64,000 bases of DNA from Pseudonocardia sulfidoxydans NBRC 16205 (GTDB lineage Bacteria; Actinomycetota; Actinomycetes; Mycobacteriales; Pseudonocardiaceae): positions 1 to 64,000 of the forward strand of contig NZ_BJVJ01000025.1 in the NCBI RefSeq assembly GCF_007989085.1, given 5' to 3'. Below the pieces are notes generated by a model, which was given only the letters and a program-made list of their open reading frames with translations, had not been told where the DNA came from and made no database searches. Made by a program: the position numbers and the translations under genes. Shown here piece after piece: positions 714 through 7,945 of the stretch (positions are counted from its first letter, which is position 1; each line of letters starts with the position of its first letter).

Positions 714-1583
714 TCAGGGGCGCCCCGACGCGGGCGCGGCCGCCGTCGGTGCCGGTCGGCGGTCCGTCCGACGATCCGTGCGGCGTGCGCCGAGCGCCGG
801 GGCGACGACGTCGGCGACGGCGCGCATCGTCGCGACGTGCGTCGCAAGACCTCCCCCGCCGGGTTGGGTCTGCACGACGAGTTCGGTGGCCCAGCCGAGG
901 GCGGGATCGCGGCGCAGCCGGGCGACGACGTCGGCGGCGGGTTCGCCCGCGGACACGATGCGCGACACCGCGACCCGGGGTGCGCCGACGGCGCGGGACC
1001 AGTAACGCGCGAGGTCGGCGGCGACGGGGGAGCCGGGGACGTCGGCGGGCCGTCCGGTGATCAGGCCCATGCTCCGGGCCGCGGCGGCGTCGACGGCCGC
1101 CGTGGACCCGGTCGCCCACCACAGCCGTTGCGTCAGCCCGGCTGCGGCGGGGACGAGCCGGGGGCCGCGCAGGATCGTGCGCAGCGTGTCGACGAGCGCG
1201 ACGGTGTCGTCGTGGCGGTCGGCGTGGTCGCGGCCGAACGCCGCGGAGGCGGCCGCGTCGGCACCCGCGCCGACGCCCAGCTCGAGGCGGCCGCCGCTGA
1301 GCGCGTCGACGACGGCGGCGTCCTCGGCGAGGCGCATCGGGTCCTCCAGCGGCGCGGCGACGACGCCGGTGCCCAGCCGGATCCGGGTCGTCGCCGTGGC
1401 GGCCGCGGCGAGCAGGACGAGCGGGGACGGCAACAGGCCGCGGGCCTCGTCGGCGTGGTGCTGGGCGACCCAGAACGTGTCGAAGCCGTGTTCCTCGGCG
1501 GCGACGGCTGCGGCGACGGTGTCGCGGTAGGTGGCGGCGGGACCGGCGGGACCGGTGACGTGCGTGAGGTACCCGAGCCGCAT
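714..1583 (-). CDS. LLM class flavin (possibly F420)-dependent monooxygenase
   Basis: Bacterial-luciferase-like TIM-barrel oxidoreductase of 289 residues. It has the family opening MRLGYLTHV, the region [21 protein letters not shown] near residues 30-50 (the AQHH core of the LLM family), and [28 protein letters not shown] near residues 85-115. The open frame runs on upstream without family character. The ATG at 1583 is chosen because the barrel's first strand starts there; an in-frame ATG six codons earlier is possible. FMN and F420 use cannot be separated by eye. It is transcribed toward the TetR gene and divergently from the SAM riboswitch. Substrate unknown. Confidence 0.85.
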
Positions 1584-1684
1584 GCGCGGAACGTAGCGCA
1601 TCGGGCACGCAGGGTGCGCGACCTGGGCGGGGGTTGTGACGGGCGCTGCGCCGGCTTGACCCGTGTCCGAGCCGCCCGGTTCAC

Positions 1685-1791
1685 TGGTCGTGCCATCCAG
1701 AGCGGCCGAGAGACCTGGCTCGTCGACGCCGCAGCAACCACGTCCGGTTGACGGACGGGGTGCTTCCGCCGGGACCGATGGGAGAGGACCA
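1685..1791 (+). ncRNA. SAM-I (S-box) riboswitch
   Basis: The core matches the actinobacterial S-box pattern: P1 5' strand CCATC (1693-1697), then AGAGCGGCCGAGAGACCTGG with the P2 GCGGC/GCCGC pairing, the conserved GCAGCAACC (1731-1739), a P3 hairpin GTCCG-GTTGA-CGGAC, the P4 segment GGTGCTTCCGCC, and the P1 3' strand GATGG (1777-1781). An outer TGGTC/GACCA pairing (1685-1689 with 1787-1791) extends P1. The ribosome-binding site GGAGAGG (1781-1787) lies inside the P1 closing region, which suggests translational control: SAM binding would stabilise P1 and hide the site. Family-level recognition is by motif and pairing; no covariance-model search was run. Confidence 0.85.
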
Positions 1792-1795
1792 CACC

Positions 1796-2068
1796 GTGAG
1801 GCCGAGCACCGCCGACGCCGCCCATGCCGACAGCCGCACGGTGCGGCGGCTACAGATCGCCGACGACCTCCTCGACCGGTTGGAGGCGCTGGTCGACCGG
1901 CATCGGGCCCTCGCCCCTCACGAGCCGGGTCTGCACGACGCGCTGCACGCCGAGCTCGTCGCGGCCGAGGTCGCGCACGAGCTGGCGGTGGCACGCAGCG
2001 CGCTGCGTGCCATCCCGGAGTACGTCAGCCGGGCAGGTGCAGAATCCCCAGCCGCAGCGCGGCCGTGA
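1796..2068 (+). CDS. Small helical protein under SAM riboswitch control
   Basis: Unrecognised 90-residue protein. The GTG start at 1796 is chosen because GGAGAGG at 1781-1787 sits upstream at workable spacing and belongs to the SAM-I riboswitch P1 region. The sequence is predicted almost entirely helical and charged ([20 protein letters not shown], later [20 protein letters not shown]). There is no signal peptide, no membrane segment and no Cys. Its 3' end overlaps the convergent response-regulator gene by 44 bases. SAM-I switches usually control methionine, SAM or methyltransfer genes, but nothing in the protein shows such a role. The riboswitch is the best evidence that the frame is a gene. 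Confidence 0.6.
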
Positions 2069-2660
2069 CGGCGGCCGTCCGGTCGTCCACCTGGAGCTTC
2101 TCGAAGATCCGCAGCAGGTGGCTCTTCACCGTCGACTCGCCGATCCCGAGCGCGCGCCCGACCGCGGGATTCGACAGCCCCTGCGCCACGGCCCGCAGCA
2201 CCTCGGCCTCGCGCGGGGTGAGCGCGGGGACCGGCGGGGTGCGCACGGCCCGGGCGAGCCGGGCCGCGACCGGCGGCGCCAGCACCGTGTCGCCGCGGGC
2301 GGCGGCGCGTACCGCGGTGACCAGCTGCGCCTGCGGGGTGTCCTTGAGCAGGTAGCCGACCGCCCCCGCCTCGACCGCGCGCAGGATGTCGGCGTCGGAG
2401 TCGTAGGTGGTGAGGATCAGGACGCGCCCGGTGCCCGCGGCGACGATGTCCGCGGTGGCCTCGACCCCGCCTCGCCCGCCAGGCATCCGCAGGTCCATGA
2501 GCACGACGTCCGGGCGCAGCGCCGCGGCGGCGGCCACCGCCTCGTCGGCACCTGCCGCGTCCCCGACGACCTGAATGCCGTCCTCCGCCGCCAGCACGCT
2601 GCGCATGCCTTCCCGGACGATCGGGTGGTCGTCCACGAGCAGCACCCGGACGGTGCTCAT
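2025..2660 (-). CDS. NarL/FixJ-type response regulator
   Basis: Two-component response regulator of 211 residues. The receiver domain (about 1-120) shows the acidic pair in LLVDDHP, the phosphoacceptor Asp in DVVLMDLRMPG (around residue 56), the Thr in LILTTYDSD and the Lys in GYLLKDTP. A C-terminal LuxR-type HTH (about 145-205) has LTPREAEVLRAVAQGLSN and GESTVKSHLLRIFEKL. Its ATG overlaps the stop of the histidine-kinase gene by four bases (ATGA), so the pair is translationally coupled. It would bind DNA after phosphotransfer from that kinase; target genes are unknown. Confidence 0.96.
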   Translation of the reverse strand: MSTVRVLLVDDHPIVREGMRSVLAAEDGIQVVGDAAGADEAVAAAAALRPDVVLMDLRMPGGRGGVEATADIVAAGTGRVLILTTYDSDADILRAVEAGAVGYLLKDTPQAQLVTAVRAAARGDTVLAPPVAARLARAVRTPPVPALTPREAEVLRAVAQGLSNPAVGRALGIGESTVKSHLLRIFEKLQVDDRTAAVTAALRLGILHLPG

Positions 2661-3954: not shown

Positions 3955-4152
3955 ATGACCGAGAACCGCATGACCGCAGGTGCCGTCGTGGTGTCGATGA
4001 TCTTCGGGATCGTGGTGGCGATCCTGGCCGTGACCGGAAGCGAGGCGCTGAGCCTCGTCGCGATCATCGGGGGTGCCGTGGTCGGGCTGACGTGGGTCGT
4101 GGTGGGCATGACGTCGGCGAGCCGCCGCCGCGGAACGCAGACCCGTTCCTAA
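3955..4152 (+). CDS. Small two-helix membrane protein
   Basis: A 65-residue protein with two clear membrane segments: AGAVVVSMIFGIVVAILAVTG (about 8-28) and LSLVAIIGGAVVGLTWVVVGM (about 32-52), ending in a basic tail SRRRGTQTR. ATG at 3955 fits the start of the first helix; longer in-frame starts upstream give low-quality basic sequence. It is divergent from the two-component system and its stop overlaps the stop of the convergent GAF/PucR gene. No family was recognised; a membrane accessory of the kinase is only a positional guess. Confidence 0.65.
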   Translation: MTENRMTAGAVVVSMIFGIVVAILAVTGSEALSLVAIIGGAVVGLTWVVVGMTSASRRRGTQTRS

Positions 4153-5972
4153 CGGGGACCCAGGAGGTCGAGGAACCCGAGCACGACCTGGGTCTGCAGC
4201 CCGCCCGCCGCCGAGCGCCAGTCGTCGTCGCCGAGGACGGTGTCGATGCGGGCGATGCGCTGGTAGACGGTGTTGACGTGGACCCCGAGGTCGCGTGCGG
4301 TCGCGGGCGGGTTGCGGTCGTGGGCGAAGTAGGCCCGCATGGTCGCGACGAGCGGGGTGCCGTGCTCGCGGTCGTAGTCGACGAGCGGGCCGACGCAGCG
4401 GTCGAGCAGCGTGGCGACCCGGTCGGGGGCGACGTCGGCCAGCAGCGAGCCGAGGACCCCCAGCTCGTCCACGGCGGCGCCCTGCCCGGTGCGGCCCAGG
4501 GTCGCGAGGAGCCGTGCACCGCGGGCGGCGCCGGGGTGCAGGTCGTGCACGTCGTGCAGGCACTCGGCACCGGTGCGCGGTCCGTCGGCGCCGGTGGTGA
4601 CGGGTGCGCCCGTGGCCGTGGTGAGCGCGGCGGCGACCCGGCGGGCGGCCGCGCCCGGGTCGGCGCCGGGGACGACGAGGACCGCGAGGCCGGCGTGCTC
4701 ACCGGCGATGCCGTCGTCGGGTTCGGCGAGGTCGGCGGCGGCCGCGAGCAGCGCCCGGCGGGGGACGGCGTCACACACCGCGACGACCACGCAGTGCAGC
4801 AGGTCGGGGGCCAGCACCCCGAGCCGGGCGGCGCGTCGTTCGAGCACGCCGGGGTCGGCGCCGGCGACGAGGTCGGTGACGAGCGCGGCGAGCTGTTCGC
4901 GGGCGACGGCCTCGGTGCGCCGCCGCGTCAGCAGCAGCAGCGCGGCGGTCTGCGCGGCCCGTTCGACGATGCGGGCGTCACCCTCGTCGAGCGGGGTGTC
5001 GCGGTGGACCCGCAGGACACCGAACGTCTCCGGCCCGGCGCGCACGGCGACCTCGCACCCCGGCGCGCCCGACGACGAGCCGGACGCCTCGGCGAGCACG
5101 GCCCCGTCCCCGGCGACGAGCGTGACGTGCGCGTCGAGGAGGGCGGCGACGGTCGTCGCGAACTCGTCGAGACCGGCCTGCCGCAGCGCCATCGGCATGA
5201 GCTGCTCGTGGGCGCGCCCGGCCCGTTCGAGGGTCTCGCGGTGCTCGCGGAGCCGGGCGTTGGCGGCGCGCAGGTCGGCGGAGTCGGCCTGGACGCGCTC
5301 GAACAGCCGCGCGTTCTCGATGACGATCGCGGCGTGCGCGGCCAGGGACGCGAGCAGCGCGATCTCGTCCTGGTCGAACGTGCGCCGGTGCCGGTCGGCG
5401 GCGAACAGGGCGCCGATGACGGTGCCGCCGGCGGCCATCGGCACCCCGGCGATGCTGACGACGTCGTCGGCGGCGACGGCGGAGGCCACGTCGGGGTCGT
5501 GGTGGATCCGCGGGTCGTGGAGGTAGTCCGACGTGGCGAGCGGCCTGCCGGTCTGGATGACGTACCCGCCGACGCCGAACCCCGGGGCCTGGCGCACCCG
5601 TTGCAGCGCCTCGGTCCGGGTGCCGGCGGTGACGCGCATGAACGCGTCGCCGGTCTCGGGGTCGACGAGCGCGATGTAGCTGGAGTCGCAGGCCAGCAGC
5701 GTGCGGGCGCGGTCGACGATCGCGGCGAGCACCTCGTCGCCGGGGCGCAGCGAGGTGAGGTCCTCGGCGGTCTCGTAGAGGGCCTGGCCCTCGTGCTCGC
5801 GGCGGGCGGTGCGGTCGAGCAGCTCCCGGACGCGCGCGGCGTCGGCAGCGGGGGAGCGGTGCGGCCCGGCGAGGTCGAGTACGGCCGCGAGCTCGGACGC
5901 GGGCGCCTCGTCGGCGAGCATCCGCAGCACCGTCGCGAGCGGGCCCGTGGCCTGCCCGGTGGTCGCGCCCAT
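4149..5972 (-). CDS. GAF domain PucR/CdaR-type transcriptional regulator (copy 2)
   Basis: Cytoplasmic regulator of 607 residues. An N-terminal linker is followed by a GAF domain (about 75-220: LLACDSSYIALVDPETGDAFMRV and VVSIAGVPMAAGGTVIGALFAAD). Then come a helical linker ENARLFERVQADSADLRAAN, a GGDEF-like CdaR region, and a C-terminal PucR HTH (about 555-600: HDRNPPATARDLGVHVNTVY). The HVNTVYQRIARID motif is the HTH_30 signature. ATG at 5972 is preceded by AGGGAG. It starts 11 bases after the stop of a closely related gene, so the two form an operon of paralogues. The long open frame continuing upstream is a shadow of that paralogue. Small-molecule sensing through GAF is likely; the ligand is unknown. 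Confidence 0.88.
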   Translation of the reverse strand: MGATTGQATGPLATVLRMLADEAPASELAAVLDLAGPHRSPAADAARVRELLDRTARREHEGQALYETAEDLTSLRPGDEVLAAIVDRARTLLACDSSYIALVDPETGDAFMRVTAGTRTEALQRVRQAPGFGVGGYVIQTGRPLATSDYLHDPRIHHDPDVASAVAADDVVSIAGVPMAAGGTVIGALFAADRHRRTFDQDEIALLASLAAHAAIVIENARLFERVQADSADLRAANARLREHRETLERAGRAHEQLMPMALRQAGLDEFATTVAALLDAHVTLVAGDGAVLAEASGSSSGAPGCEVAVRAGPETFGVLRVHRDTPLDEGDARIVERAAQTAALLLLTRRRTEAVAREQLAALVTDLVAGADPGVLERRAARLGVLAPDLLHCVVVAVCDAVPRRALLAAAADLAEPDDGIAGEHAGLAVLVVPGADPGAAARRVAAALTTATGAPVTTGADGPRTGAECLHDVHDLHPGAARGARLLATLGRTGQGAAVDELGVLGSLLADVAPDRVATLLDRCVGPLVDYDREHGTPLVATMRAYFAHDRNPPATARDLGVHVNTVYQRIARIDTVLGDDDWRSAAGGLQTQVVLGFLDLLGPR

Positions 5973-5983
5973 CTGCCGCTCCC

Positions 5984-7945
5984 TCACGTCCCCGGCGCCG
6001 GGACGAGCTCCTCGAGCGGGATCTGGGTGGTGAGCCGGTGCAGCTGCAACCCGAGCTGCATCGTCACCCCGCCCTCGGTCTCGCGCCACCGCCGGTGCCC
6101 GAGGACGTGGTCGACGCGGTCGAGACGTTGGTAGACGGTGTTGGGGTGGACCTGCAGCCGACGCGCCGCGGCCCGCGGGTTGCGGCCGGCGGCGAAGTAG
6201 GCGTCGAGGGTGTCGAGCAGCAGCGCGTTGTGGTCGGCGTCGTAGCGGCGAAGGGGTTCCACGGTGCGGGCGAGCAGGGCCCGGACCTGGCGCTGGGTGG
6301 TGCCGTCGAGGATGACGCCGAGCATCCCGAGGTCGGTGGGGCAGGCGCCCTCGCCGTCGCGGCCGAGCGCGACGAGCAGCCGCAGGGTGCGCTGCGCCTC
6401 GCGGTGGCGGGCCCGGACGTCGGCGGCGGTGTCGGCGGGCCCGGCGACGCCCGCGGTGACCCTCCCACCGGTGAGCCGGCTCAGCTCGACGGCGATGGTG
6501 CGGGCGACGGCGTCGGGGTCGGGTCGGGGCAGGACCATGACGACGCGGCCGTCGTGCTCGGCGGCCAGGCCCCCACGGACGCCGACGTGCGTGGTCGCGG
6601 CCCGCAGCAGCGCGGCCCGGGTCACGCCGGTCGCGGTGGCGACGACGACGGTGTGCGCGACCCGCAGGTCGAGCGCCCCCGAGCTGCGGATCCGCCGGGT
6701 CAGCGCGGTCCAGTCGGGTTCGCGCTCGGCGAGCAGGTCCTCCAGCAGCTCCCCGCGGACCTGGTGCTCGGCGGCGCCGACCTGCTGGTCGATCAGCAGC
6801 ATCAGGGCCGCGGTCTGCGCGGCCCGTTCGAAGGTGCGGACGTCGGCGTCGGAGGGCACCTCGTCGGTGACCAGGACGAGATGGCCGAACGACGTGTCGC
6901 CGGCCCGGACGGGGACCGTCCAACAGGTCGGGACGCCGCCGGGCAGTGCGACGTGCGCGTCGTCGGGCGGTTCGGGCAGCGGGGACGGGAGGTCGCCGTC
7001 GCCGCTGGTCACGAGCACGGACCCGTCGGTGCCGACGGCGGCGACCGTTCCGCCCAGCATCACGGCGACGGTGTCGACGAGCTCGCCGAGGTCGGCGCGG
7101 CGCAGCGCGAGCGGCATCATCTGCTCGTGCGCGGCGCCGGCCCGTTCCAGGGCACGTTGGCGTTCGGCGAGCTCCTCGTTGGCCGCGCGCAGCTCGGCGG
7201 CGGTGCGCTCGGCGCGCTCGAACAGCTCGGCGTTGCCGATGACGATCGACGCGTGGTCGGCCAGTGAGCACAGCAGGTCCATCTCGGCGGTGTCGAAGGC
7301 CCGTGAGTACCGGTTGGCGACGAACAGCACCCCGACGACCTCGTCGCCGCGCCGCATCGGGGCCCCGGCGATGCTGACGATGCCGTCCTCGACGACGGCG
7401 TCGGTGACGTCGGGGTCGCGGCGCAGCCGGGGGTCGGCGAGGTAGTCGGCGGTCGCGAACGGCACCGCGGTGGCGACGACCCGGCCACCGATCCCGCTGC
7501 CCACGGGCTGCCGGATCGTCTCGATCGCCCTGGTCAGGGTGCCCAGCGTGATCCGCATGTAGACGTCACCGCGGTCGGGGTCGCGCAGCGCGAGGTAGGT
7601 GGCGTCGGTGCGCAGCAGCTGGCGGGTGCGGCGCACGAGCGCGTCGAGGACCTCGTCGACGTCGTGCAGGGAGGCGAGGTCACGTGCCGACTCGACGAGC
7701 GCGAGCGCCGCCCGCTCCCGGCGGCGGCGGTGGGCGAGCAGGTCGCGGACGCGCCCGGCGCTGCCGAGGGCGAGGAACATCTCGTCGCGTCGCGGGCCGG
7801 GCGGGCTCGCCTCGACGGCAGCGGCGAGCGCCTCGAACTCGACGGCCGGTGCTTCGGTGGCGAGCAGGTGCAGCAGCCGCGCCGCCAGGTCCTCGGCCGT
7901 TCCCGGGGCGGAGCGGGCAGCCGTATCGGCGGTCGGGTCGAGCAT
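5984..7945 (-). CDS. GAF domain PucR/CdaR-type transcriptional regulator (copy 1)
   Basis: 653-residue paralogue of the downstream gene with the same order: a helical N-terminus, GAF (about 110-240, with LLRTDATYLALRDPDRGDVYMRI and IVSIAGAPMRRGDEVVGVLFVAN), coiled linker ERAERTAAELRAANEELAER, CdaR-like central region and C-terminal HTH_30 (AAGRNPRAAARRLQVHPNTV, then LDRVD). ATG at 7945 follows GGAGGTGAC. A perfect 11-bp inverted repeat with a possible -10 hexamer between its arms lies just upstream, pointing to autoregulation. Proteins of this build usually control a nearby catabolic operon, here plausibly the LLM/SDR run that starts at 8088, but that is inference. Confidence 0.88.
   Translation of the reverse strand: MLDPTADTAARSAPGTAEDLAARLLHLLATEAPAVEFEALAAAVEASPPGPRRDEMFLALGSAGRVRDLLAHRRRRERAALALVESARDLASLHDVDEVLDALVRRTRQLLRTDATYLALRDPDRGDVYMRITLGTLTRAIETIRQPVGSGIGGRVVATAVPFATADYLADPRLRRDPDVTDAVVEDGIVSIAGAPMRRGDEVVGVLFVANRYSRAFDTAEMDLLCSLADHASIVIGNAELFERAERTAAELRAANEELAERQRALERAGAAHEQMMPLALRRADLGELVDTVAVMLGGTVAAVGTDGSVLVTSGDGDLPSPLPEPPDDAHVALPGGVPTCWTVPVRAGDTSFGHLVLVTDEVPSDADVRTFERAAQTAALMLLIDQQVGAAEHQVRGELLEDLLAEREPDWTALTRRIRSSGALDLRVAHTVVVATATGVTRAALLRAATTHVGVRGGLAAEHDGRVVMVLPRPDPDAVARTIAVELSRLTGGRVTAGVAGPADTAADVRARHREAQRTLRLLVALGRDGEGACPTDLGMLGVILDGTTQRQVRALLARTVEPLRRYDADHNALLLDTLDAYFAAGRNPRAAARRLQVHPNTVYQRLDRVDHVLGHRRWRETEGGVTMQLGLQLHRLTTQIPLEELVPAPGT

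Follow-up and report, generated by a model that had tools for sequence, protein, structure and literature searches.

SAM riboswitches are known, and cysteine leader peptides are known. Among the former, the SAM-I class (S-box, RF00162) is the closest relative of the switch described here. As for the latter, cysteine-responsive attenuation has been reported in M. smegmatis (Canestrari 2020, as cited in PMC13236596 and PMC9094748), and Cys leaders are described in front of cys operons, with a suggested role for Rho (PMC1262725), as far as the accessible portions of these sources go. The actinobacterial cysteine leaders (models NF042934, NF042933 and NF042936, and the mycobacterial polycysteine short ORFs) have the same motif as the leaders discussed below, with a Cys beside the stop. 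They differ in that here a SAM riboswitch stands in front, and in that the leader has been lost from the locus under study. Two further systems show partial likeness, judging from excerpts of the respective papers. In M. tuberculosis, ppe2 is preceded by a B12 riboswitch and a uORF, with reinitiation at an AUGA overlap (PMC11260477). There too the signal is relayed by a short ORF whose translation is under riboswitch control, but the ligand is another one, relay is by AUGA-overlap reinitiation and the excerpt describes no Cys leader motif. In S. meliloti, the metA SAM-II riboswitch sequesters a ribosome site, the gene start lying further on (PMC9373788). This is again a SAM switch acting on a ribosome site, but of the SAM-II class, with a single reading frame and, in the part of the source available, no Cys leader peptide. 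Among the top matches listed for the open-access literature, none reports a SAM riboswitch combined with a cysteine leader; one is reportedly on contiguous riboswitches (PMC12452182).

The DNA analysed is a 64,000-nucleotide stretch of Pseudonocardia sulfidoxydans NBRC 16205 (the window). The elements of its switch are as follows:

1656..1685, + strand: promoter-like TTGACC, 18 nt, TTCACT, identified by eye and conserved in the alignment with the relatives G040 and G044
1690..1784, + strand: SAM-I aptamer without P4 (RF00162, 51.4 bits against a cut-off of 44.4, E 6.7e-9)
1781..1788, + strand: ribosome-binding tract GGAGAGGA at the edge of P1, read from the sequence

A SAM-I aptamer is present in the window, as the earlier note had proposed from its core. 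The covariance-model match at 1690-1784 is the sole gathering-level Rfam 15 match within the 64 kb, and RF00162 is the best-scoring member of its clan for this aptamer. That note had also described pairings P1 to P4. P1 and P2 are indeed seen in the Rfam alignment, but the P4 hairpin expected between P3 and P1 is absent from it, 3 nt taking the place of 19 model positions. We have therefore filed the aptamer as a P4-less variant and not as a canonical SAM-I. By eye, the core of P1 pairs CCAUC (1693-1697) with GAUGG (1777-1781), while the Rfam P1 has 8 pairs, two of them non-standard, and extends to 1784. The ribosome site had been thought to be buried in P1. It does begin there but, with the Rfam P1 ending at 1784, GGAG is placed at the P1 edge and GAGG (1784-1787) mostly beyond it. 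Plain RNA folding of 1690-1805, without ligand or pseudoknot, did not return the SAM-I fold, and the folding stability of the window RNA was no better than that of shuffles (z 0.27). Folding being uninformative, the case for the aptamer is carried by the covariance model and by conservation.

The window aptamer thus shares with SAM-I the core and a score above the gathering cut-off, and differs from it by the missing P4 and by a supported 6-bp helix between the P2 loop and the nucleotides preceding P1 (in register, 79% of cells pair, versus 28-49% when slid). The third pair of this helix was C-G in 35, U-A in 30, U-G in 29 and G-C in 3 of 101 rows, some of which are misregistered. A further difference from SAM-I is that the relatives' switch controls a leader peptide. 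Assignment to the SAM-I/IV variant (RF01725) was considered and rejected: the P2 of this variant is described, in the accessible part of the source, as devoid of an internal loop (PMC2864571), whereas the window P2 keeps one (Rfam alignment, by eye), and RF00162 wins the clan.

Downstream of the aptamer and on either side of the unit, the following frames were found:

714..1583, - strand: divergent luciferase-like monooxygenase (PF00296, 130.8 bits), a neighbour that may lie outside the unit
1796..2068, + strand: fused ORF of 90 aa encoding a small helical protein, with a GTG start and a conserved core from 1829
1796..1819, + strand: remnant of a leader-peptide gene, namely its first 8 codons, with which the ORF now opens (23 of 24 bases identical to the leader start of G040:C16)
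2025..2660, - strand: convergent response regulator (PF00072 and PF00196)

The 90-residue ORF reported earlier, from GTG 1796 to the stop at 2068, was confirmed. It starts 11 nt after the aptamer and its end overlaps the response-regulator frame tail-to-tail by 44 nt. For the divergent monooxygenase, the nearest NCBIfam model was TIGR04027, at 174.9 bits and below its cut-off of 412.9. Elsewhere in the window, two related regulator-like frames lie on the minus strand (4149-7271 and 5984-7945); the ends of similar frames adjoin the small-protein units of G040 and G044 (by eye).

The promoter-like stretch and the aptamer recur in G040:C16 and G044:C4, where leader, stop, spacer and small protein come next, in this order. 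The window ORF begins VRPSTADA and then runs on at DSRT of the small protein. Only 33 nt separate its start codon from the core, against 246 nt in G040 and 230 nt in G044, which amounts to 213 nt, or 71 codons, fewer than in G040, in frame. The window ORF is therefore a deletion product in which the first codons of the leader are fused to the small helical protein, an origin that is invisible from the window sequence alone. A leader motif with Cys near the stop was not found after the window aptamer, where the first codons of the leader alone remain. It is a local deletion that would have put the small protein of the window under direct SAM control. The opposite loss was observed in G057 (locus L011, G057:C478), where promoter, leader and small protein are kept and the aptamer body is missing; this is a weaker case, since that assembly comprises 970 contigs and its contamination is estimated at 9%. 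An assembly error at the window junction might be suspected from a draft of 209 contigs, with the deletion seen in one genome only and its site 1.7-2.1 kb from the end of the contig. We think this very improbable, as two conserved parts meet in frame at the junction and the flanks align cleanly. Our preferred interpretation, which we hold to be reasonably probable, is that the locus derives, by deletion, from a two-input sulfur regulator composed of a SAM riboswitch and a leader on which ribosomes would stall when cysteine is low.

The core of the fused protein belongs to a small-protein family of the genus. Homologues were found in 52 of 60 genomes of the genus and in none of 40 other genomes of the order, the window protein being 77% identical to that of G040 and 65% to that of G044 (alignment A1, 34 sequences). 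The reading frame is kept, as judged by a dN/dS of 0.082 over the 59 codons of the core compared with G040 (12 synonymous and 3 replacement changes), and one replacement in the core is specific to the window. Outside the core, position 72 of the window protein is Ala, where nearly all members of the family have Arg. This last substitution, together with the replaced N-terminal tail, the C-terminus overlapping the neighbour gene and a diverged paralogue on C22 of this genome, could indicate a decaying remnant whose product no longer serves. On the other hand, the frame, the start and the ribosome tract are intact, and the core shows the low dN/dS and single specific replacement just mentioned, although a recent deletion would look alike. 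Decay consequently appears to us rather unlikely, and we retain the interpretation of a deletion derivative. The C22 paralogue lies between two Cys leaders; at L109 and L144 (G000:C22), the second of these Cys-type leaders is located between the paralogue and an ABC substrate-binding gene.

No known methionine gene had been recognized downstream of the switch, and this holds: the window protein gave no Pfam match over cut-off (Rnk_N at 15.4 and PolC_DP2_N at 11.5 bits are both below) and no NCBIfam match up to E 1. The helical nature foreseen for it is borne out by the AlphaFold2 model, a two-helix hairpin formed by residues 5-39 and 47-71 (mean pLDDT 80.4, pTM 0.63), for which a PDB fold search gave no match (best E 1.5). 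Gene neighbours were compared at 27 loci, one member of each kind being identified by Pfam and the others by BLAST cluster. The small-protein gene lies behind a PF03601 gene, which we take to be of a sulfate-exporter-like family, in 6 loci and behind a TauE gene, named sulfite exporter in Pfam, in 3; in 7 loci a gene for an FMN-dependent dehydrogenase comes after it. In G035 and G036 it is followed by a gene of OsmC type. A function in the scavenging or handling of sulfur is probable for the small protein, and its gene neighbours make this a fair lead.

A dedicated SAM control of this protein is a different matter. The earlier note had seen here a good lead for a new player of methyl or sulfur metabolism and had raised the question whether SAM-I switches stand in front of its homologues elsewhere. 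They do occur, 12 of 82 homologue matches, window included, lying at most 400 nt downstream of a short SAM-I match. However, in 11 of these 12 loci the switch is first followed by an ORF for a cysteine-type leader peptide, the window being the exception, and for 70 of the 82 matches no short SAM-I match is listed within 400 nt upstream. An Rfam scan (E 0.1) of 20 small-protein loci returned no RNA family. That the switch serves a dedicated methyl- or methionine-metabolism protein would accord with the conserved core and with the position of the small protein as first and only ORF between the switch and the convergent genes in the window. It seems improbable to us given the intervening leaders, the many homologues with no listed switch and the other genes that stand behind most leaders of the genus (see below). 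The sulfur part of the proposal is retained, the dedicated SAM control is not supported, and the switch of the window is best read as what a deletion has left. Two SAM-I matches on one strand, about 1.0-1.3 kb apart, were observed near a small-protein gene at L136-L139 (G030:C144 and G052:C11).

The arrangement from which the window departs is the normal one in the genus. This genome carries six RF00162 matches, all above cut-off. A short ORF bearing the motif H(V/L)D(L/F)xR...C begins 3-5 nt past the aptamer at three places (C3, C66 and C22); at C19, a short ORF lacking the motif begins 11 nt past it. The long match on C13 precedes a frame read as threonine synthase; a thrC-linked SAM riboswitch has been described in S. 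lividans (PMC8079986, in the portion available). We collected 73 RF00162 matches of at most 110 nt from 62 genus genomes, using strict filters by which weak matches may be missed; 16 of them score under the Rfam gathering cut-off. A leader-peptide ORF (HVDLxR...ALCR type, NF042934-like) follows 65 of the 73, starting 2-11 nt past the aptamer match in 64 cases and 40 nt past it in one. The leader finder gave 4 hits in 7300 Markov-shuffled sequences, 4 at 1420 random positions of the fetched loci and 0 at 30 long thrC-type matches with loci. Eight switches have no leader: that of the window, that on C19 of this genome, and a single one in each of G030, G052, G049, G047, G055 and G101. Several of them run directly into a luciferase-like or FAD-oxidoreductase frame (by eye). 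Thus, the aptamer-leader tandem is the rule in the genus and the window an exception.

A simple start rule assigned the first gene behind 53 of the 65 leaders, 12 being left out. It encodes the small protein in 10 of the 53 and a transporter or flavin oxidoreductase in 35 (by eye). Ten of these first genes identified by Pfam were DAO (2), DUF1684, luciferase-like (3), ABC ATPase, SBP_bac_5 and GNAT (2). The first genes of the genus are mostly transporters, luciferase-like and FAD enzymes, with a sulfur role that is only putative.

The leaders themselves were compared with models of cysteine leader peptides. Three of six leaders tested scored above the NF042934 cut-off (27 bits), two matched Cys-leader models below cut-off and one matched none. 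Among 64 distinct motif windows, Arg occurs two positions before His in all 64 and Cys at the eleventh position after it in 61, while His, Val and Asp belong to the search motif and their presence proves nothing. Since the Arg, His, Val and Asp codons vary at the third base, conservation here is at the level of the peptide. The last Cys codon behaves otherwise: it is UGU in 59 of 61 cases in the genus, in contrast to the Cys inside the motif, which is UGC in 30 of 30, and to the 123 UGC versus 10 UGU counted in 40 window genes. Outside the genus, UGU was found in 31 of 31 distinct leaders, not counting duplicates and frames of more than 22 codons. In this genome, 13 loci yielded 6 leaders, and all 6 have UGU as the last Cys codon. 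Slower G-U decoding or base pairing is a possible reason for this choice. In 28 of the 65 leaders there is just one Cys, short of the runs of regulatory codons that classical leaders have. Past the leader stop, C makes up 48% and G 29% of the next 60 nt. C exceeds G there in 62 of 62 genus rows, three of the 65 having been excluded for length or duplication, and outside the genus it does so in 29 of 29. Upstream of the aptamer and 600 nt downstream, C exceeds G in 19 and 31 of the 62 rows, respectively, rows that are too short being counted as no.

Cysteine sensing might be dispensable if SAM-controlled translation of the leader alone passed the signal on, by reinitiation or by exclusion of Rho. 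Such a relay has a published example in the riboswitch-controlled uORF of ppe2, with reinitiation (PMC11260477, as excerpted), and the C-rich RNA past the leader stop fits Rho. Nevertheless, conservation of the last Cys and of its UGU codon far exceeds chance, and leaders of the cysteine type also occur where there is no SAM switch, for example before a nitrite/sulfite reductase-like frame of this genome (by eye). For the scan of this genome with NF042934 at E 10, motif-bearing matches alone were used; at this E the model also matches in 10 of 14 control genomes, never above cut-off there. A relay responding to SAM only is in our view a minority possibility, and we favour a leader that would itself sense cysteine, in keeping with the two-input origin proposed above.

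The tandem extends beyond Pseudonocardia. A pattern combining the aptamer core, the P1 end and H(V/I/M)D(L/F) codons, run in a genome collection, matched at least 80 loci: at least 21 in Pseudonocardia, at least 39 others with aptamer and leader, and at least 20 devoid of a SAM core. Of the matches listed, 20 were set aside as chance, the SAM core being absent. As the pattern requires the leader motif, it gives no leader rate outside the genus, and the matches listed for 298 genomes of the order are mainly the strongest ones, of thrC length, which allow no count of the tandem. The other loci include Rhodococcus, Rhodococcoides, Kineococcus, Kineosporia, Quadrisphaera, Plantactinospora, Actinomycetospora, Segeticoccus, Streptomyces sp. 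NP160 and several MAGs, so that with Pseudonocardia the tandem spans at least five orders of actinomycetes. RF00162 was passed by 16 of the 18 loci scanned among these at least 39, L210 and L217 being the two that did not pass. Clear sulfur families were found for 5 of the 10 first genes tested at loci of other actinomycetes:

Sulfur-type: NIR_SIR; rhodanese/mercaptopyruvate sulfurtransferase type (two); O-acetylhomoserine sulfhydrylase type (Cys/Met PLP); SsuA type
Sulfur link only putative: OsmC; SBP families 3 and 5; NtaA/DmoA-type monooxygenase

Pfam matches of these genes pass their cut-offs, and the SsuA match alone passes its NCBIfam cut-off; the first gene of L254 had no NCBIfam match. 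At L224 of Quadrisphaera granulorum, a SAM-I and a SAM-IV riboswitch were observed in divergent orientation about 110 nt apart (2109-2197 on the minus strand, 2305-2414 on the plus strand).

Taken together, these results suggest how the full device could work. It would open with a P4-less SAM-I riboswitch whose end coincides with the ribosome-binding site for a short leader peptide. At low SAM, this site would be free and the leader translated; if cysteine were low too, the ribosome would stall at the UGU Cys codon just before the leader stop, and the operon would be expressed. Most likely, the stalled ribosome would shield the C-rich, G-poor spacer from Rho, or else open the next ribosome-binding site. 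High SAM would prevent leader translation and expose the spacer, and high cysteine would permit normal release, so that either condition would switch expression off. The E. coli tna leader TnaC, which senses tryptophan with no riboswitch in front, works in the same way in that a ribosome held at the leader end keeps Rho off. In the window, where leader and spacer are gone, the missing 213 nt or so would have removed the cysteine input and set the riboswitch directly on translation of the small protein, leaving a one-input switch answering to SAM alone.

Beyond this locus, we see about even chances that SAM-I aptamer and cysteine leader constitute a compact two-metabolite AND gate, distributed over at least five actinomycete orders, with UGU as a dedicated cysteine sensor and with inputs removable as modules (SAM alone in the window, leader alone in G057). 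The new part is the joining of the two known elements in one leader RNA. If they are so joined, sulfur-scavenging genes would be expressed only when SAM and cysteine are both short. Such a gate would give the annotated 'putative leader peptides' an upstream input and make two-metabolite logic in one RNA directly testable, with the window and G057 as natural single-input derivatives usable as controls.
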